Assembly (NCBI GenBank): GCA_030595925.1
Contig: JAUVLC010000088.1
Coordinates: 1-10,228 of the forward strand
Direction of reading: 5' to 3'
Origin: Clostridia bacterium
GTDB lineage: Bacteria; CBDUZB01; JAGLHV01
Length of the DNA: 10,228 nt
Shown here: positions 3,162 through 10,132 of the stretch, in pieces
Position numbering within the stretch: position 1 is the stretch's first letter
Layout: every line of letters begins with the position of its first letter
Notes under the pieces: generated by a model
Database searches by the model: none
Told to the model about the DNA's origin: nothing
Seen by the model: the letters and a program-made list of their open reading frames with translations, nothing else
Translations under genes and position numbers: made by a program

Positions 3162-3204
3162 AACTCATATGTTTGTTGTCTTTATTCCGTTGTCTATAGA
3201 CTAT
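3162..3204 (+). repeat. 43-bp diverged direct repeat, copy 2
   Basis: This is the partner of 2877-2919. It lies immediately before the heptamer tracts at the 3' end of comF. Confidence 0.75.
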
Positions 3205-3259
3205 GGACTGTCGTTTCTTTTTTTAATCTATAGACTATCGACTGTGGACTATGGACTAT
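3193..3259 (+). repeat. Two GGACTAT heptamer tracts abutting the comF stop codon
   Basis: The first tract (3193-3213, TCTATAGACTATGGACTGTC) and the second (3227-3259, beginning TCTATAGACTATCGACTGTG) are separated by a short T-rich spacer. The second ends one base before the comF stop codon at 3261-3263, so it would occupy the very start of the comF 3' untranslated region. Confidence 0.8.
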
Positions 3260-3260
3260 T

Positions 3261-3974
3261 TTACCCATGTGCCAGTACTAAACAAAATATCCCTTGTGGG
3301 TGGCATTGATTAAGCATACGCGCACATTCATTTAAAGTGGATGTTGTAGTACAAACATCATCTATTAAAAGCAGCTGACGGCCTTTAAATAGCTGTGGAT
3401 TTCTAACTTTAAAAGCATTTTTAACATTTTCCTTTCTTTGTTTTCTGTTTAAATTAAATTGAGGAGAAGTCTTTTTTATTCTAATCAGATTATCGACAAT
3501 TTGCGGCTTAGAAAAATGTTTGCCAATTTTTTTAGTCAACAAATCAACCTGATTAAATCCTCTTCTTTTTTTCTGGGATTTAAACAAAGGAACAGGAACT
3601 AAACAATCAATTTTTTCTAGATCCACTTTTTCATTTATATAAGCAATTAATAGCTTTCCTAATGGTTGTTGTAAAATTCTTTTCCCTTTATATTTAAAAG
3701 AATGGATGCATTCCCTCATAATTCCTTCATACAAGGAACAAACATATATCCTTTCAAAATAGTATTTTATATTACGGCATTGACTACACAAAAACCCGGC
3801 TTCTTCATTTTTACCGCACTTATGACAATACGGTTCTTTTCTATATTTAATTTTGTCCAAACACTCCTGACAAAGCCCTTCCTCATTAATTAAATCCTTC
3901 CCGCATCCCACACAACTTACAGGGAAAAAAAGACTTAAACAATAATTCGATATTCCCTTTAATTTCCCCCTCAT
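3261..3974 (-). CDS. comF: ComF-family (double zinc ribbon) phosphoribosyltransferase-like protein
   Basis: This is a ComF/GntX-type protein of 237 residues, a normal family length. In naturally competent bacteria ComF acts in the cytoplasm during uptake of single-stranded DNA; the exact reaction is unknown for most members. The N-terminus has two Cys4 zinc-ribbon sets (Cys21/24/35/38 and Cys50/53/63/66). The phosphoribosyltransferase domain follows with LVPVPL (125-130), RRGFNQ (137-142), the T..Q..L..R..N...AF block (169-188) and the PRPP-loop LLLIDDVCTTTST (201-213). In that loop the usual Gly of DDVxTTGxT is Thr211. The start ATG overlaps the lptE stop as ATGA (3971-3974) with a weak GAGAAGAG upstream, which implies translational coupling. 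A heptamer-repeat tract begins right after the stop. No other competence gene is in the window, so a DNA-uptake role is by family only. Confidence 0.93.
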   Translation of the reverse strand: MRGKLKGISNYCLSLFFPVSCVGCGKDLINEEGLCQECLDKIKYRKEPYCHKCGKNEEAGFLCSQCRNIKYYFERIYVCSLYEGIMRECIHSFKYKGKRILQQPLGKLLIAYINEKVDLEKIDCLVPVPLFKSQKKRRGFNQVDLLTKKIGKHFSKPQIVDNLIRIKKTSPQFNLNRKQRKENVKNAFKVRNPQLFKGRQLLLIDDVCTTTSTLNECARMLNQCHPQGIFCLVLAHG

Positions 3975-4510
3975 CTCTTCTCACTTATTCCTGAAGCGGC
4001 AAACCATCCGTCTATAGTCCTTTTAACTATATCTTTAGCTAACGATTTTACAACTATATTTTGAGCTTCGCTTTCCGTAAGAGAACTACCTCCTCCCCGG
4101 GCAACAACAAAATACTCTGTCTCCGCAGTCATTCTTTTTTCCACCCAAAGCATTTTATTTGTAGCCGCATCTTTAAGTCCTATATTTACCCAAACCCATA
4201 ATTTATATTCCTGAGCAATATAATTCTCATCAAAAGAAAGAGGTTGTAAAATATATTTGCTGATTTCCCCTAATAACACTGCGTCCGCCAAATCAGGGTT
4301 AACTACTCCTACTCTTCTATCCTGTAAAAATTCTTTAACTACTTCATCAGTCAACTTTCTACTTATTAACAAATGTCCTGTTTTATCTACAAATTGCCGG
4401 ACACTAATCTTTCTAATGTTTTCCGGCAAAACAGAAGGAGCCGGCACATAACCACATCCAAAAACAAAGATAACTAACACAACTGAAAAATATAAATAAT
4501 ATCTTTTCAT
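3971..4510 (-). CDS. lptE: LptE-family outer-membrane lipoprotein
   Basis: LptE is the lipoprotein that plugs and assembles the LptD barrel, which inserts lipopolysaccharide into the outer leaflet. This 179-residue protein has a short positive start (MKR), a hydrophobic stretch (about 5-17) and a lipobox VFGC with Cys19 followed by GY, typical for LptE. The mature part shows the expected features: VLPENIRKISVRQF early, a DAVLLGEISKY beta segment, an alternating KLWVWVNIGL strand and a C-terminal helix ending near KRTIDGWF. A strong Shine-Dalgarno (AGAGGAGG) lies 10 bases upstream of the ATG. It follows the SprA-like gene by about 240 bp and overlaps comF by 4 bp. LptD is absent from the window. 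Assignment rests on overall pattern, so a different small outer-membrane lipoprotein of the same fold, perhaps serving the neighbouring barrel, is possible. Confidence 0.82.
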   Translation of the reverse strand: MKRYYLYFSVVLVIFVFGCGYVPAPSVLPENIRKISVRQFVDKTGHLLISRKLTDEVVKEFLQDRRVGVVNPDLADAVLLGEISKYILQPLSFDENYIAQEYKLWVWVNIGLKDAATNKMLWVEKRMTAETEYFVVARGGGSSLTESEAQNIVVKSLAKDIVKRTIDGWFAASGISEKR

Positions 4511-4750: not shown

Positions 4751-7700
4751 CTAAAAAATAATCGACAAATCGGCTGACAGACTTATACTCCAATAATCAT
4801 CTTCTTTTTGCTTTCTGTTTTTAAAAGAACTTCCTCCCACACCCAGGGTAATTTTTAAATTCTCACTGGTGTCATAGGTACAATCAACATCTACGGAATA
4901 AGTATCCGTATTATCCCTTTTATCTTCTATACCGCTTTTTCTTTCGTATTTAATGAGAGAATCTACCACTAAGCGATTTCTCAAATGTAATCCAATCAAA
5001 GGAATTATAAAATCCTTTGCAGTAACATCCACATAAATTTTCAAACTGGGAGACCGGGTAATTATCCCTTTGGTTTTTGTTCCTACTTCGTTTGTTTCTT
5101 CTTCGTCCGTATATTCATAGCGCGGACTAAGACGCCACTTATCTAAAAGGACACTTACCTGTACACCTGTTTTCCGACTAAATCCGTCCTTGGTTGTTTC
5201 ATCAACATTCTTAAGAATATTTATAGTTTTATTACGCCTATCATCATAATCAAGAACCACATCATATCTGGTAAAAAGATCAAATCGTAAATCCCCACCA
5301 TATGTTTTACTAATATCTCTGGAAACATCCTTTGTTTCTATTGTTTTATGAGAATAATTAATAGCAAGTCGGGAATCACAAATAATTTTACTATCCAGAC
5401 TAAAAAACTTTTCTATATCCCCGATATTCATAGTTAAATCCGGCCAAATCTTAGTAAAGATTCTCAACCCACTATTGGTAATTTCCTTATAATCGTCAAT
5501 TTCGGTATAATTGGTCGTGGTCTCCATAGTCTTTAAAGGACTAAAAGCATTATTCAAATCCAGTGAACTAAACGGCCTCCAACGATTGTTAGTTTTACGG
5601 GTACATCGATTAGAAAAACTTTTGGTTGTTGCACCGGGAAAACTTAATTTATCCTTTTCTCGCAACAGCCATAATCCTTCCCATCTACTCCACCTGTTTC
5701 TTGCTTCTTTTTTACCTTCTTCATCTAATCCCTGTTCTTCCACATCATAGGAGTCGCCTGTTTCTACCTTATAACTAGTATCCGTAGTTAAAGAATGAAG
5801 AGGGGTTACCCCCGGAAAAAGATTTTTAAACGTTAAAGAATAATTTAACTGTCCATCACTATTACGGCTTATTGTTTCTATTTCGCCTGTACGGAAATCA
5901 TACGACCCCGAAGAGTTTATTTTATAATTAAACGATGGAGCCAACCAGGTAAAAACTTTTAGATTAGAATCAAAACTGACTGTTTGAGCACGGTATTTAT
6001 CCTTAAAATATTTATTCTTAAAATCTGTATTAGCAGGCCCATCATTCTCCTCTTCTTTGGCTTTGATTACTTCCAAATAATAATAAGGATTAAAAGAAAA
6101 ACCTTTCCAAAACTTAAAAGGTAACCTTGCGGAAAAATTTTCAGTCAGATCCCGATAATTATTAGGAGCAATCACAGTAAAGGTTGTTTCTTCAACTACA
6201 TAATTTTGACGTCTATAGGAAACATCTATTGCTGTCGGCAATAAATTTACTCCCCATTCTTCAGGCGTATAAGAGGAATATTTCAAAGGAATATTATAAT
6301 CTAACGAACCCTTTCGAGTGAAAGTATCCTTTCTTTCCCAAAGAAGTTTGGAGTTGGAGTGGTCTTCAGCATAATTAATTTTTAAAGTAGGCCAGCGCGG
6401 CACCAATAATTCCGCACCACCTTCTCCGGAGAAACTTTCAACCTTCCCTTCATCAAAGCTACTATAAGGTGTATCATAGGCTGAAGGGGTCACTGTTTCC
6501 TGGTGACTACCGCTAAAAGAAAGAGGTAAAAACTTAAAACGGGTAAACTCAAGTCCGGCAGATTCCGATTTAATTTCCTGCCCGGAAGTAAGGCTTCGAG
6601 TACTAATTAAATCCTGTTGAGAACTACCGGTTGTAATCGTTTCAAAATCAGCATCTATGTTTTTATGGTTAGCATGAGCATTAAACCATCCCGGTAATTT
6701 AAAATCCACAGCTGATTTCCATGCTATACCTTCTTTTTTTTCTATTCCGTCTACAAATATATCATTCACCCAGATCTCCCCATCGGTAATCTTACCTCCC
6801 GTGTTATTCCTTACTCCTATTTTTATCTGCATAATATTGTTCAAGTAAGGACTACCCTGATATCCGGTAAATCCGTCGGGAATCTCATTTTTGTCTTCAT
6901 CTTTATTTAAATGAATAGTACAAACCTTCCAGCCTGTCCAATTTATTGTTTCGGCATATTCATAATAATTAGTATCATTTGCCCCAAGCTGAATATAAAA
7001 AGTCGCATTTTTTGCTTTACTGCCATACAGAAAAAATTTTATTTTTTTATATTTTGAATAATCCTGTGCCCGGCTAAAAGTTGTTTTTGTATAAGCGGCT
7101 GTACTCGCATTTAAAGTATAACTCAAAGAAAGTGCCTGCTCCTTTCTTTTTTCGGTTACCGAAGAACGATAAAGATTTTCATATTCACTATTATTGGTTA
7201 TATCTTCGTATTCTGCATCATCTTCATTATTTACGGCTTTTACGGTTAAATATTCCCCATCTATTGACTCAAAAGAACCTCCTTCCTTTACACCTTTATC
7301 CCATTTTGTTCCCACTATCCCAATAGAACTAATTTTCATTGTTCCACTTTTTACTCCTGCATCTTTATTCCTTACAGTTAATCTTATGTGTTTAATTGCT
7401 GCCCATTGATTCTCATCTACAATGTCAAGAGGGATTTTTATCAGATTCCATCCTGTCCAGTCAATAATTTGACTATAGAAATTACCGGAACTATTCTTAT
7501 CATCTAACACATTATCCCCATCTAAATCCTGGGTATCTATATTCCCATTATTCTCCCCAATAAAAGTAACGCTTCCGTCCGGATGAACAAATGGCCATCC
7601 GATGTCCTCTCCTTCACCTAAAATACCGTCGCCATTAATGTCTTCTGTCTTGGGCGCCCCCCCTATAACCCCGGATCCGTCAGAATTTTCATTAATCCCG

Positions 7701-9910
7701 CCCAAATGAATTTCCAATTCTTCCCCTTCACTTGTTCCATAAATACACATTTCCAAAAACATTTTTTTAGAATAATCTACCCCAACTTGAGAAATCGGGT
7801 AGACAATAGAAGCTTCTTCATCAAAACTTTTCAGGTTATAGTTAAGATTGATAACCTCAACCTCTTCAGACTCTCCCACTTCCTCCAGCCAATTAGGATT
7901 GGTTTTTTCTACTATTTCCCTACGCTTGACATCTTCATTCTCCCAGTTAAGTGCCCCCTTTAAAGTAACTGCTTCCTCAACAGGATTACTGCTTAACTGC
8001 CAAAAATCCTTCTCCAGAGGAACACTGCTCATCAATTTTGCCCCTTCCATATTATCAATCATTGCCTTACCGAATAAATTAGGATTAAATTGACTCTGAG
8101 CAATTTCACCGGATATAGTCGTCTTTAACGGAAATTTTTCATGCTCAATCTTAACCCTGCTGTCAACATCTACTACTAAAACACTTTGAGGGGTAGAATA
8201 AACACTGGGAACAGTAGAAGATTTATCGGTTCCGCTCCAGATAACAGTAGACCCGATAAAAAAAGGATCGGTATTTTCCCCATACTGCAATCTGCTTCCC
8301 ACTAAAGTTTGCTGCGATTGGCCTCCAAAAGGAGCATATTCATAAGTAATCTCAATATTAGTATCCTCATCTATTTCTTCTTCATTAAAAAAAGTTATAA
8401 ACCCTGACTCATAATCAATCATATAATCTCTGTCTTTTTGAAGCAATTGATTATTCATTATTATTCTCTCACTGTTTAAAACAATATCGGGGCGTAAAAT
8501 ATAAGTCTTTACCCTATATTTGTATTCTACGTAAATAATATTCTGGTGATCCCGGCTGGATTCATTTTTATTATAAACAGATTCAGAAAAAGGTTTTTCT
8601 TCGTTAAATTTTAAAATTCCCAAATCATAATCTATTTCATGTTGATAATCAGTTAAGTTTTGTTCTTCACGAGCTAAATTGAGAATTTTTAAAACAAAAT
8701 CTCCCTCATATTTTTTTATAATCTTAGTGCTTCCTAAATTATAATAATTTTTAAGGTCGTAATCCAAAGAATCCTCTTCGTCTTTTATTATTAAGTACTG
8801 ATCATTATTTACACTGCTTACTTTCACTCCGTTTATATCTTCATAGTCGATTATAATTATATAATTCGAAGCAACGTTTCTTCTAAAAGTAATGATTCCC
8901 TTGTCGTGATCAATCGTATAATCCTGTCCCCGAAATTGTTTATCAAAAAATCCATTATAAGTTGTAGTGCTATTCCATACTTTTGCCGTTATTTCTTTGT
9001 TTATTGTTTCCGATTGAGGGGTAGTACCATCTTTAAAATCAATCCATATTTCCTCACTTTCCCTTTTTACCTGAGAATGCTCTAATTTATAATATTTTCT
9101 TGTTGTATAACTTATATCTTTAATTTCTTTCTTCTCAGAAGTGGTACCGCCCTTAAATTTTTTTACTTCTGTTAATCCTTTTGTTCGTGAACCAATTGCC
9201 ATTAACCCCAGGTGTTTATATTTAGCATCTAATTTAACTCCAAAAACATTTTTATTATAAGAAACAAACTCCGTAGAAGGCAAAGAAAGCATTATATCAC
9301 CAAAAGCTGCCTGCTGAACAATTTCACCCGGATCACCTTTATAAACTACCGATATATCCCGTTTGTCTTCTTTCGTATCATCATAATCAACATTAACCGT
9401 AACCTTTCTACCAACTTTTCCTTTTATGCGAACCTGTAATTCCTGCTCCATTTCCACATTAGCACCTTCAGACTTGGAAATATTGGTAGTATCTTCTTTT
9501 TTATTAGGATACTTTGTCCATTCTGCTTTTACCTTAATTTTTTTTCTTCCTGAAATGCTCAACTGAGATTCATAAGGAAAGGCTATGTCTATTAGACCTT
9601 CATCTTTTTTAGGTTCTTCGGTTGAAAGATAATGTTCTTCCTCTAATTCATCTTTTTCTTCTTTAAAAAAAACTCCTTCTTCCTTTTTTTCCCTCATCTT
9701 ATTCCATTTTTCCTTATTAAAATCCAAAAAATCCCTTCCTTCCAAAAAATTATTAAAACCGACGGTTTCATCTAAAAATTCCTCTTCCGGAAAAAAAAGA
9801 GTTTCACCTTCGGGGATTAAAGAAAGATTATTTTCTGCGGCAAAAAAAAAATTATTATTAACAAAACCCATAAAAACCAAACAAAAAAATAAAATCTTTA
9901 TTTTTTTCAA
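4751..9910 (-). CDS. sprA: SprA-like giant outer-membrane beta-barrel (type IX secretion translocon family)
   Basis: SprA forms the outer-membrane pore of the type IX secretion system. Numbering here is from the TTG at 9910 (1719 residues; Bacteroidota SprA is about 2,400). Seen in order: signal peptide (MKKIKILFFCLVFMGF, likely cut near FFFA/AEN, 24-25); an acidic, Lys/Glu-rich stretch (31-106); the N-terminal SprA block VTVNVDYD...GDPGEIVQQ...FGDIMLSLPSTEF...FGVKL (about 170-225); and three DYxIDxxxGxIxF repeats (326-357, 419-465, 489-528). IDNMEGAK (618-625) matches the SprA IDDFEG motif. Two WTGW galactose-binding-like domains follow (Trp818/821, Trp991/994), then IWVNDIFVDG (1045-1055), and a long beta-rich barrel ending in SLSADLSIIF with the C-terminal Phe expected for BAM recognition. 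There is no frameshift. A longer in-frame start (TTG, 9997) lies upstream of the TATAAT and is less likely. PorV and PorK-N are not in the window. Confidence 0.88.
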   Translation of the reverse strand: MKKIKILFFCLVFMGFVNNNFFFAAENNLSLIPEGETLFFPEEEFLDETVGFNNFLEGRDFLDFNKEKWNKMREKKEEGVFFKEEKDELEEEHYLSTEEPKKDEGLIDIAFPYESQLSISGRKKIKVKAEWTKYPNKKEDTTNISKSEGANVEMEQELQVRIKGKVGRKVTVNVDYDDTKEDKRDISVVYKGDPGEIVQQAAFGDIMLSLPSTEFVSYNKNVFGVKLDAKYKHLGLMAIGSRTKGLTEVKKFKGGTTSEKKEIKDISYTTRKYYKLEHSQVKRESEEIWIDFKDGTTPQSETINKEITAKVWNSTTTYNGFFDKQFRGQDYTIDHDKGIITFRRNVASNYIIIIDYEDINGVKVSSVNNDQYLIIKDEEDSLDYDLKNYYNLGSTKIIKKYEGDFVLKILNLAREEQNLTDYQHEIDYDLGILKFNEEKPFSESVYNKNESSRDHQNIIYVEYKYRVKTYILRPDIVLNSERIIMNNQLLQKDRDYMIDYESGFITFFNEEEIDEDTNIEITYEYAPFGGQSQQTLVGSRLQYGENTDPFFIGSTVIWSGTDKSSTVPSVYSTPQSVLVVDVDSRVKIEHEKFPLKTTISGEIAQSQFNPNLFGKAMIDNMEGAKLMSSVPLEKDFWQLSSNPVEEAVTLKGALNWENEDVKRREIVEKTNPNWLEEVGESEEVEVINLNYNLKSFDEEASIVYPISQVGVDYSKKMFLEMCIYGTSEGEELEIHLGGINENSDGSGVIGGAPKTEDINGDGILGEGEDIGWPFVHPDGSVTFIGENNGNIDTQDLDGDNVLDDKNSSGNFYSQIIDWTGWNLIKIPLDIVDENQWAAIKHIRLTVRNKDAGVKSGTMKISSIGIVGTKWDKGVKEGGSFESIDGEYLTVKAVNNEDDAEYEDITNNSEYENLYRSSVTEKRKEQALSLSYTLNASTAAYTKTTFSRAQDYSKYKKIKFFLYGSKAKNATFYIQLGANDTNYYEYAETINWTGWKVCTIHLNKDEDKNEIPDGFTGYQGSPYLNNIMQIKIGVRNNTGGKITDGEIWVNDIFVDGIEKKEGIAWKSAVDFKLPGWFNAHANHKNIDADFETITTGSSQQDLISTRSLTSGQEIKSESAGLEFTRFKFLPLSFSGSHQETVTPSAYDTPYSSFDEGKVESFSGEGGAELLVPRWPTLKINYAEDHSNSKLLWERKDTFTRKGSLDYNIPLKYSSYTPEEWGVNLLPTAIDVSYRRQNYVVEETTFTVIAPNNYRDLTENFSARLPFKFWKGFSFNPYYYLEVIKAKEEENDGPANTDFKNKYFKDKYRAQTVSFDSNLKVFTWLAPSFNYKINSSGSYDFRTGEIETISRNSDGQLNYSLTFKNLFPGVTPLHSLTTDTSYKVETGDSYDVEEQGLDEEGKKEARNRWSRWEGLWLLREKDKLSFPGATTKSFSNRCTRKTNNRWRPFSSLDLNNAFSPLKTMETTTNYTEIDDYKEITNSGLRIFTKIWPDLTMNIGDIEKFFSLDSKIICDSRLAINYSHKTIETKDVSRDISKTYGGDLRFDLFTRYDVVLDYDDRRNKTINILKNVDETTKDGFSRKTGVQVSVLLDKWRLSPRYEYTDEEETNEVGTKTKGIITRSPSLKIYVDVTAKDFIIPLIGLHLRNRLVVDSLIKYERKSGIEDKRDNTDTYSVDVDCTYDTSENLKITLGVGGSSFKNRKQKEDDYWSISLSADLSIIF
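7612..7642 (-). other. EF-hand-like calcium-binding loop in the SprA-like protein
   Basis: Residues 757-768 (numbered from the 9910 start) read DINGDGILGEGE, a canonical 12-residue EF-hand/dockerin loop with Asp, Asn and Asp at positions 1, 3 and 5, Gly at 6 and Glu at 12. A second acidic loop, DLDGDNVLDD (795-804, about 7499-7528), follows within the same inserted segment of the first galactose-binding-like domain. Calcium binding is inferred from the pattern. Confidence 0.6.
9842..9851. repeat. Ten-base homopolymer in the signal peptide coding region
   Basis: An A10 run on the plus strand (T10 on the coding strand) encodes the three Phe codons just before the predicted signal-peptidase site. 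Slippage of one or two bases would frameshift the whole protein. Confidence 0.6.
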
Positions 9911-9914
9911 TTTT

Positions 9915-9920
9915 CCCTCT
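9915..9920 (-). promoter_or_regulatory. Ribosome binding site deciding the TTG start of the sprA-like gene
   Basis: AGAGGG on the minus strand lies four bases before the TTG at 9910-9908. Translation from there gives a textbook signal peptide (MKKIKILFF...). The longer frame from the TTG at 9997 has no Shine-Dalgarno and would put about 29 extra basic residues in front of the hydrophobic core. Confidence 0.6.
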
Positions 9921-9964
9921 TTTTCCAAAACATTCACCTGTTTTTGTAATATCTTTTTGCATTG

Positions 9965-9993
9965 ATTATATCTTTTTTTATTTTTCAATGCAA
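9965..9993 (-). promoter_or_regulatory. Sigma-70-type promoter of the sprA-like gene
   Basis: On the minus strand there is a perfect -10 box TATAAT (9970-9965) and, with a 17-bp A-rich spacer, a weak -35 box TTGCAT (9993-9988). Transcription would begin near 9958, giving a leader of about 48 nt before the TTG at 9910. A perfect TTGACA also occurs at 10020-10015 but has no acceptable -10 at 16-18 bp. Confidence 0.55.
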
Positions 9994-10132
9994 ACAATTT
10001 GTTCGATTGAATAGTGTCAATATCCTAAAAAAAAAACTCAAAACACCCATCAATGAAAGTAATTTAAACAAATCTAACAGTATTTTAAACCCTAAATCCG
10101 ATATTGAAAAAAGGAAATAGACGAGAAAGAGC

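Follow-up and report, generated by a model that had tools for sequence, protein, structure and literature searches.

Does a large open reading frame (ORF) on the minus strand of contig JAUVLC010000088.1, whose full 10,228 nucleotides form the stretch analysed here (the window), encode SprA, the outer-membrane translocon of type IX secretion, in a bacterium that may lie outside Bacteroidota? A sequence-only reading of the window had proposed as much, allowing for either a reduced translocon or a related giant barrel with another cargo. By profile and by predicted fold, the ORF product is a genuine SprA homologue, and we conclude with good confidence that it serves as the translocon in a compact form of type IX secretion, in a candidate phylum near Elusimicrobiota, where many of the cargoes are encoded together with a PorV of their own.

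The TIGR04189 (SprA) profile matches the protein in four stretches along the chain (E = 3.6e-44, 150.5 bits), a significant score which is below the curated equivalog cut-off of 200 bits; we therefore file the protein as a SprA homologue and not as a TIGR04189 equivalog. The PF14349 (SprA_N) profile was matched in the genome search, over cut-off with neighbours in frame (E = 5.5e-6). A Pfam scan of the protein alone gave weak sub-cut-off matches only, such as Lyase_N, and a PDB sequence search with the whole protein returned no match. Structure was predicted as two overlapping AlphaFold models from alignments of 41 sequences, spanning residues 100-1250 (predicted local distance difference test, pLDDT, 76) and 600-1748 (pLDDT 81). 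For both models the four solved SprA entries (8gl8, 8gl6, 6h3i and 6h3j) lead the Foldseek results, at E values of 1e-35 to 1e-48; the first unrelated structure follows only at about 1e-6. Outside the jelly-roll region, 7-9 N-terminal and 27 C-terminal long strands are predicted across these two partial models, some 34-36 in total, in line with the 36 that the sequence-only reading had given for known SprA without proving that number. Structural matches resembling carbohydrate-binding modules (CBM) were considered as a separate enzyme and rejected, as they reflect jelly-roll domains within SprA. The gene is laid out as follows:

4751..9910, minus strand: gene for a compact SprA-type outer-membrane translocon, 1,719 amino acids from TTG 9910
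9839..9910, minus strand: probable Sec signal peptide LKKIKILFFCLVFMGFVNNNFFFA, as read from the sequence itself
9119..9568, minus strand: N-terminal barrel strands, 7-9 predicted (AlphaFold model pLDDT 76), with FGDIMLSLP at 9278-9304
8042..8059, minus strand: IDNMEG motif (sequence and conservation among 41 relatives)
6734..8080, minus strand: tandem jelly-roll (CBM11/CBM27-like) region (VIA-align to CBM11: Z 15.5, root-mean-square deviation 2.7, 153 aligned)
7448-7459 and 6929-6940, with 6755-6775, minus strand, inside the jelly-roll region: WTGW motifs and IWVNDIF, respectively
6563..6859, minus strand: segment matching positions 374-465 of the PF14349 SprA_N profile (profile search)
4760..6736, minus strand: C-terminal barrel, 27 long strands predicted, Phe at the end (AlphaFold model pLDDT 81)

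The frame itself (4751-9997, minus strand) has 1,748 open codons and reaches an upstream TTG at 9997. We prefer the start at TTG 9910, which is that of the sequence-only reading, because AGAGGG lies just 5' of it and a signal-peptide-like segment comes directly after. Counted from TTG 9997, FGDIMLSLP stands at residue 232, DYTIDHDKGIITF at 359, DYMIDYESGFITF at 524, IDNMEG at 647, WTGW at 847 and 1020, and IWVNDIF at 1075, with Phe as the C-terminal residue; the SprA hallmarks read from the sequence are all located at the places and in the order claimed for them.

The window's genome encodes cargo for such a translocon, with 23 type A C-terminal sorting domains (TIGR04183) over cut-off, on proteins that include S8 and M4 peptidases, glycosidase-like and chondroitinase-B-like proteins, and propellers. 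All 11 genomes of the same SprA clade (see below) that were reached via named loci carry such domains (7-48 each). Across the sampled genomes, sorting domains over cut-off are present in 18 of 19 SprA-positive genomes and in 3 of 40 SprA-negative ones (Fisher p 3.6e-11). Three genomes with no SprA match (G029, G019 and G035) have sorting-domain matches over cut-off; a translocon of even greater divergence may be concealed in them.

Putative shuttles accompany the cargo. The window's genome has about 25 PorV-family genes, scoring up to 207 bits against PorV_fam (cut-off 90) and falling under the narrower PorV equivalog cut-off. For 12 of the 23 cargo domains a PorV match lies on the same strand within 1 kb, where random placement expects 1.6% each. 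Reading of the contigs added further pairs on C56, C92 and C126 (the latter two with a home-made profile of the C-terminal domain), and pairs also occur in the relatives L190, L191, L195 and L198. Cargo and PorV genes are scattered over more than 20 contigs of the genome, and some members of the PorV family are solitary (C78, C112, C33 and C68). Several PorVs, paired and lone genes among them, extend beyond the barrel, through TPR repeats (C132, C56, C39, C164, C171 and C169), LysM (C112) or OmpA (C122). On contig C122 (5050-7545, L169), a subtilase cargo gene is apparently split into a peptidase ORF and a sorting-domain ORF, right before its PorV. Together, the sorting-domain and PorV-family proteins favour a secretion role over the other cargo that the sequence-only reading had kept in view.

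We infer from gene order and domain content how such a system might work. Proteins that combine an N-terminal Sec signal with a type A C-terminal domain would enter SprA as cargo on its periplasmic side; at the lateral opening of the pore, a barrel of the PorV family would dock, bind the C-terminal domain, and exit with the cargo into the outer membrane. The gene pairs suggest that type A cargo in the clade has dedicated PorVs, such that each of the many paralogues, often adjoining one or two cargo genes, would serve the cargo with which it is paired, an arrangement we consider probable. The paired PorV probably remains as an anchor, holding its cargo at the surface, given that the matches listed include no PorU-like sortase and that TPR, LysM or OmpA domains form the ends of several PorVs.

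Several observations weigh against this account. Each AlphaFold model spans part of the barrel, such that closure and the exact strand number remain predicted. TIGR04183 resembles FlgD-type Ig domains, and a few cargo calls may therefore be wrong. One Endomicrobium-type genome (G058, locus L035; 99% complete, 1.3 Mb) keeps SprA and has no sorting-domain protein detectable in the TIGR04183 search. The motor was sought with GldL and GldM profiles, PorK, PorN, SprE and Plug being outside that search, and nothing scored over cut-off in any panel genome, canonical-SprA genomes included; a control search within G055's phylum likewise gave no match, so these nulls are not evidence of absence. For PorU, which we treat as an accessory part and not as one that defines type IX secretion, the matches listed for the window's genome and for those of the clade are at the sorting-domain end only, a null that in the window's genome rests on those matches and on the 17 of 28 candidates that were scored; a PorU-type sortase is over cut-off in 10 genomes of the same panel that resemble the Fibrobacteres-Chlorobi-Bacteroidetes (FCB) group. 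The search for other type IX parts that the sequence-only reading had suggested thus recovered the PorV family and sorting domains, and left GldL and GldM unmatched, with no working control.

The alternative that survives best is that the type IX system is complete and of the ordinary kind: the motor (PorL/M) and ring (PorK/N) would be present but too diverged for the GldL and GldM profiles, one general PorV would handle most of the transport, and the other PorV-family barrels would be unrelated transporters. We take this to be a substantial possibility, if short of an even chance. Profiles that fail in canonical-SprA genomes too say little by failing here, and the solitary PorV-family genes fit a general shuttle; the pairing of cargo with PorV is, however, far above chance, and a search of this type does detect PorU in FCB-like genomes, with none among the matches listed here.

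The neighbourhood of sprA bears on a second alternative. Two genes follow it in the window:

3971..4510, minus strand: LptE-like lipoprotein gene (PF04390, E = 1.6e-7), 240 bp downstream of sprA
3261..3974, minus strand: comF family gene, a conserved downstream neighbour (TIGR00201, 3.6e-32, below its cut-off)

The neighbours first read from the sequence, lptE, comF and PBP, are all confirmed, as lptE-like, comF and PBP1A; the view of this context as unusual for SprA is wrong in part, as divergent lptF/lptG upstream and comF downstream form a conserved context in the clade. Of the 63 loci that extend far enough, 49 have divergent lptF/lptG no more than 3 kb upstream of sprA; among 14 loci of more distant origin, the same family flanks sprA in 4. 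The next gene downstream is comF in 38 of 62 loci. An identification of the upstream conserved genes as PilT was rejected, as Pfam gives LptF/LptG. The divergent arrangement is seen at L081-L160 and at L041, L044, L045 and L046, loci that span Elusimicrobiota as well as certain distant lineages. In the window's genus it is joined by the lptE-like gene, which also adjoins sprA in the sister metagenome-assembled genome (MAG) L081.

This adjacency, the lptE-like neighbour, and the retention of SprA without detectable cargo in G058 would suit a SprA homologue that mainly serves export of lipopolysaccharide (LPS) or other outer-membrane lipids, with sorting-domain proteins as secondary cargo. We consider such a role improbable given the strong association of SprA with sorting domains across genomes, and given that SprA is the best structural match to the protein, far ahead of LptD. 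The lptF/lptG-sprA adjacency may be mere old synteny or a functional tie to LPS export. Elsewhere in the window, a 7-base unit (CTATGGA) forms intergenic arrays at 261-280, 2586-2612, 2909-2940 and 3197-3259, with 12 near matches to TGGACTATGGACT where 0.2 are expected, and similar stretches occur on other contigs of the genome.

As to the host of this type IX translocon, a scan for related loci (80 of 145 confirmed loci kept) found the MAGs L081 and L082 nearest, followed almost only by Elusimicrobiota, Endomicrobia included. The genome's kin in the sample are two same-genus relatives, and all other genomes share the domain only. In the SprA protein tree the window falls within a 26-row Elusimicrobiota-type clade (Shimodaira-Hasegawa-like approximate likelihood ratio test, 100), and a separate, FCB-like clade of 12 rows holds SprAs that are mostly longer; branching inside the window's clade is unsure owing to a short-search tree and uneven amino-acid composition. 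The SprA of G058 sits among Endomicrobium rows and its genome is related to the window's at the level of domain only, so GTDB Elusimicrobiota does not appear to include the window. These results bear out a host outside Bacteroidota and support a candidate phylum close to Elusimicrobiota. That the contig came from an FCB bacterium and was binned into this draft MAG of 193 contigs is highly improbable, as both same-genus MAGs carry sprA orthologues at 74-99% identity, SprA branches with Elusimicrobiota and not with the FCB-like clade, and the cargo and PorV genes are so widely dispersed across contigs.

The same relatives alter how the size of the protein is read. At about 1,720 residues it is indeed compact, but "reduced" needs rewording: full-length SprA relatives of 1,690-1,870 residues occur throughout Elusimicrobiota and are usual for the clade, and small size is thus a clade trait. 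Against TIGR04189, five clade relatives scored 119-176 bits, all under the 200-bit cut-off, and automatic naming by that profile would therefore miss them.

Flavobacterium johnsoniae SprA and Porphyromonas gingivalis Sov (TIGR04189; PDB 6h3i, 6h3j, 8gl6 and 8gl8) share with the protein end-to-end homology and fold, and at the genome level both type A cargo domains and members of the PorV family are common to the two sides. They differ in size (a 2,319-position TIGR04189 model and 1,988-2,290 residues in solved SprA chains), in that the translocon here is below the TIGR04189 cut-off and its host is not in the FCB group, and in the many PorV paralogues paired with cargo and the lack of PorU among the matches listed here. 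Within the SprA pore of F. johnsoniae, loops of PorV bind the cargo domain; the complex then exits via the lateral opening, and motor energy is required for release of cargo from the translocon (PMC10994853). A single PorV serves all type A cargo in that species, and dedicated PorP/SprF shuttles carry type B cargo (PMC12618676); the latter arrangement resembles our pairs in that a shuttle gene adjoins the cargo gene, whereas the pairs here combine type A domains with PorV-family barrels. Poribacteria likewise have TIGR04183 proteins outside the FCB group, for which a 2014 paper found no structural genes and left the export route open (PMC3909097); here, in contrast, translocon and shuttles are found, the translocon under the usual cut-off. 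According to a 2024 paper, type IX genes do not occur beyond the FCB group (PMC11285876), and the accessible parts of the literature on Elusimicrobiota and type IX secretion contain no claim of such a system.

Our most tentative proposal, which we hold to be possible but rather doubtful, is a type IX-like system with neither PorL/M motor nor PorU, common to Elusimicrobiota and the neighbouring candidate phylum, in which each cargo would be pulled out and held by its own co-encoded, wall-tied PorV (TPR, LysM or OmpA). SprA homologues, with cargo and shuttles, are carried by an entire phylum and by a lineage adjacent to it; those tested score under the standard annotation cut-off. If this is true, type IX secretion would be older or more widespread than stated, and, if the motor is really absent, the clade would test the view that motor energy releases cargo from the translocon (PMC10994853).
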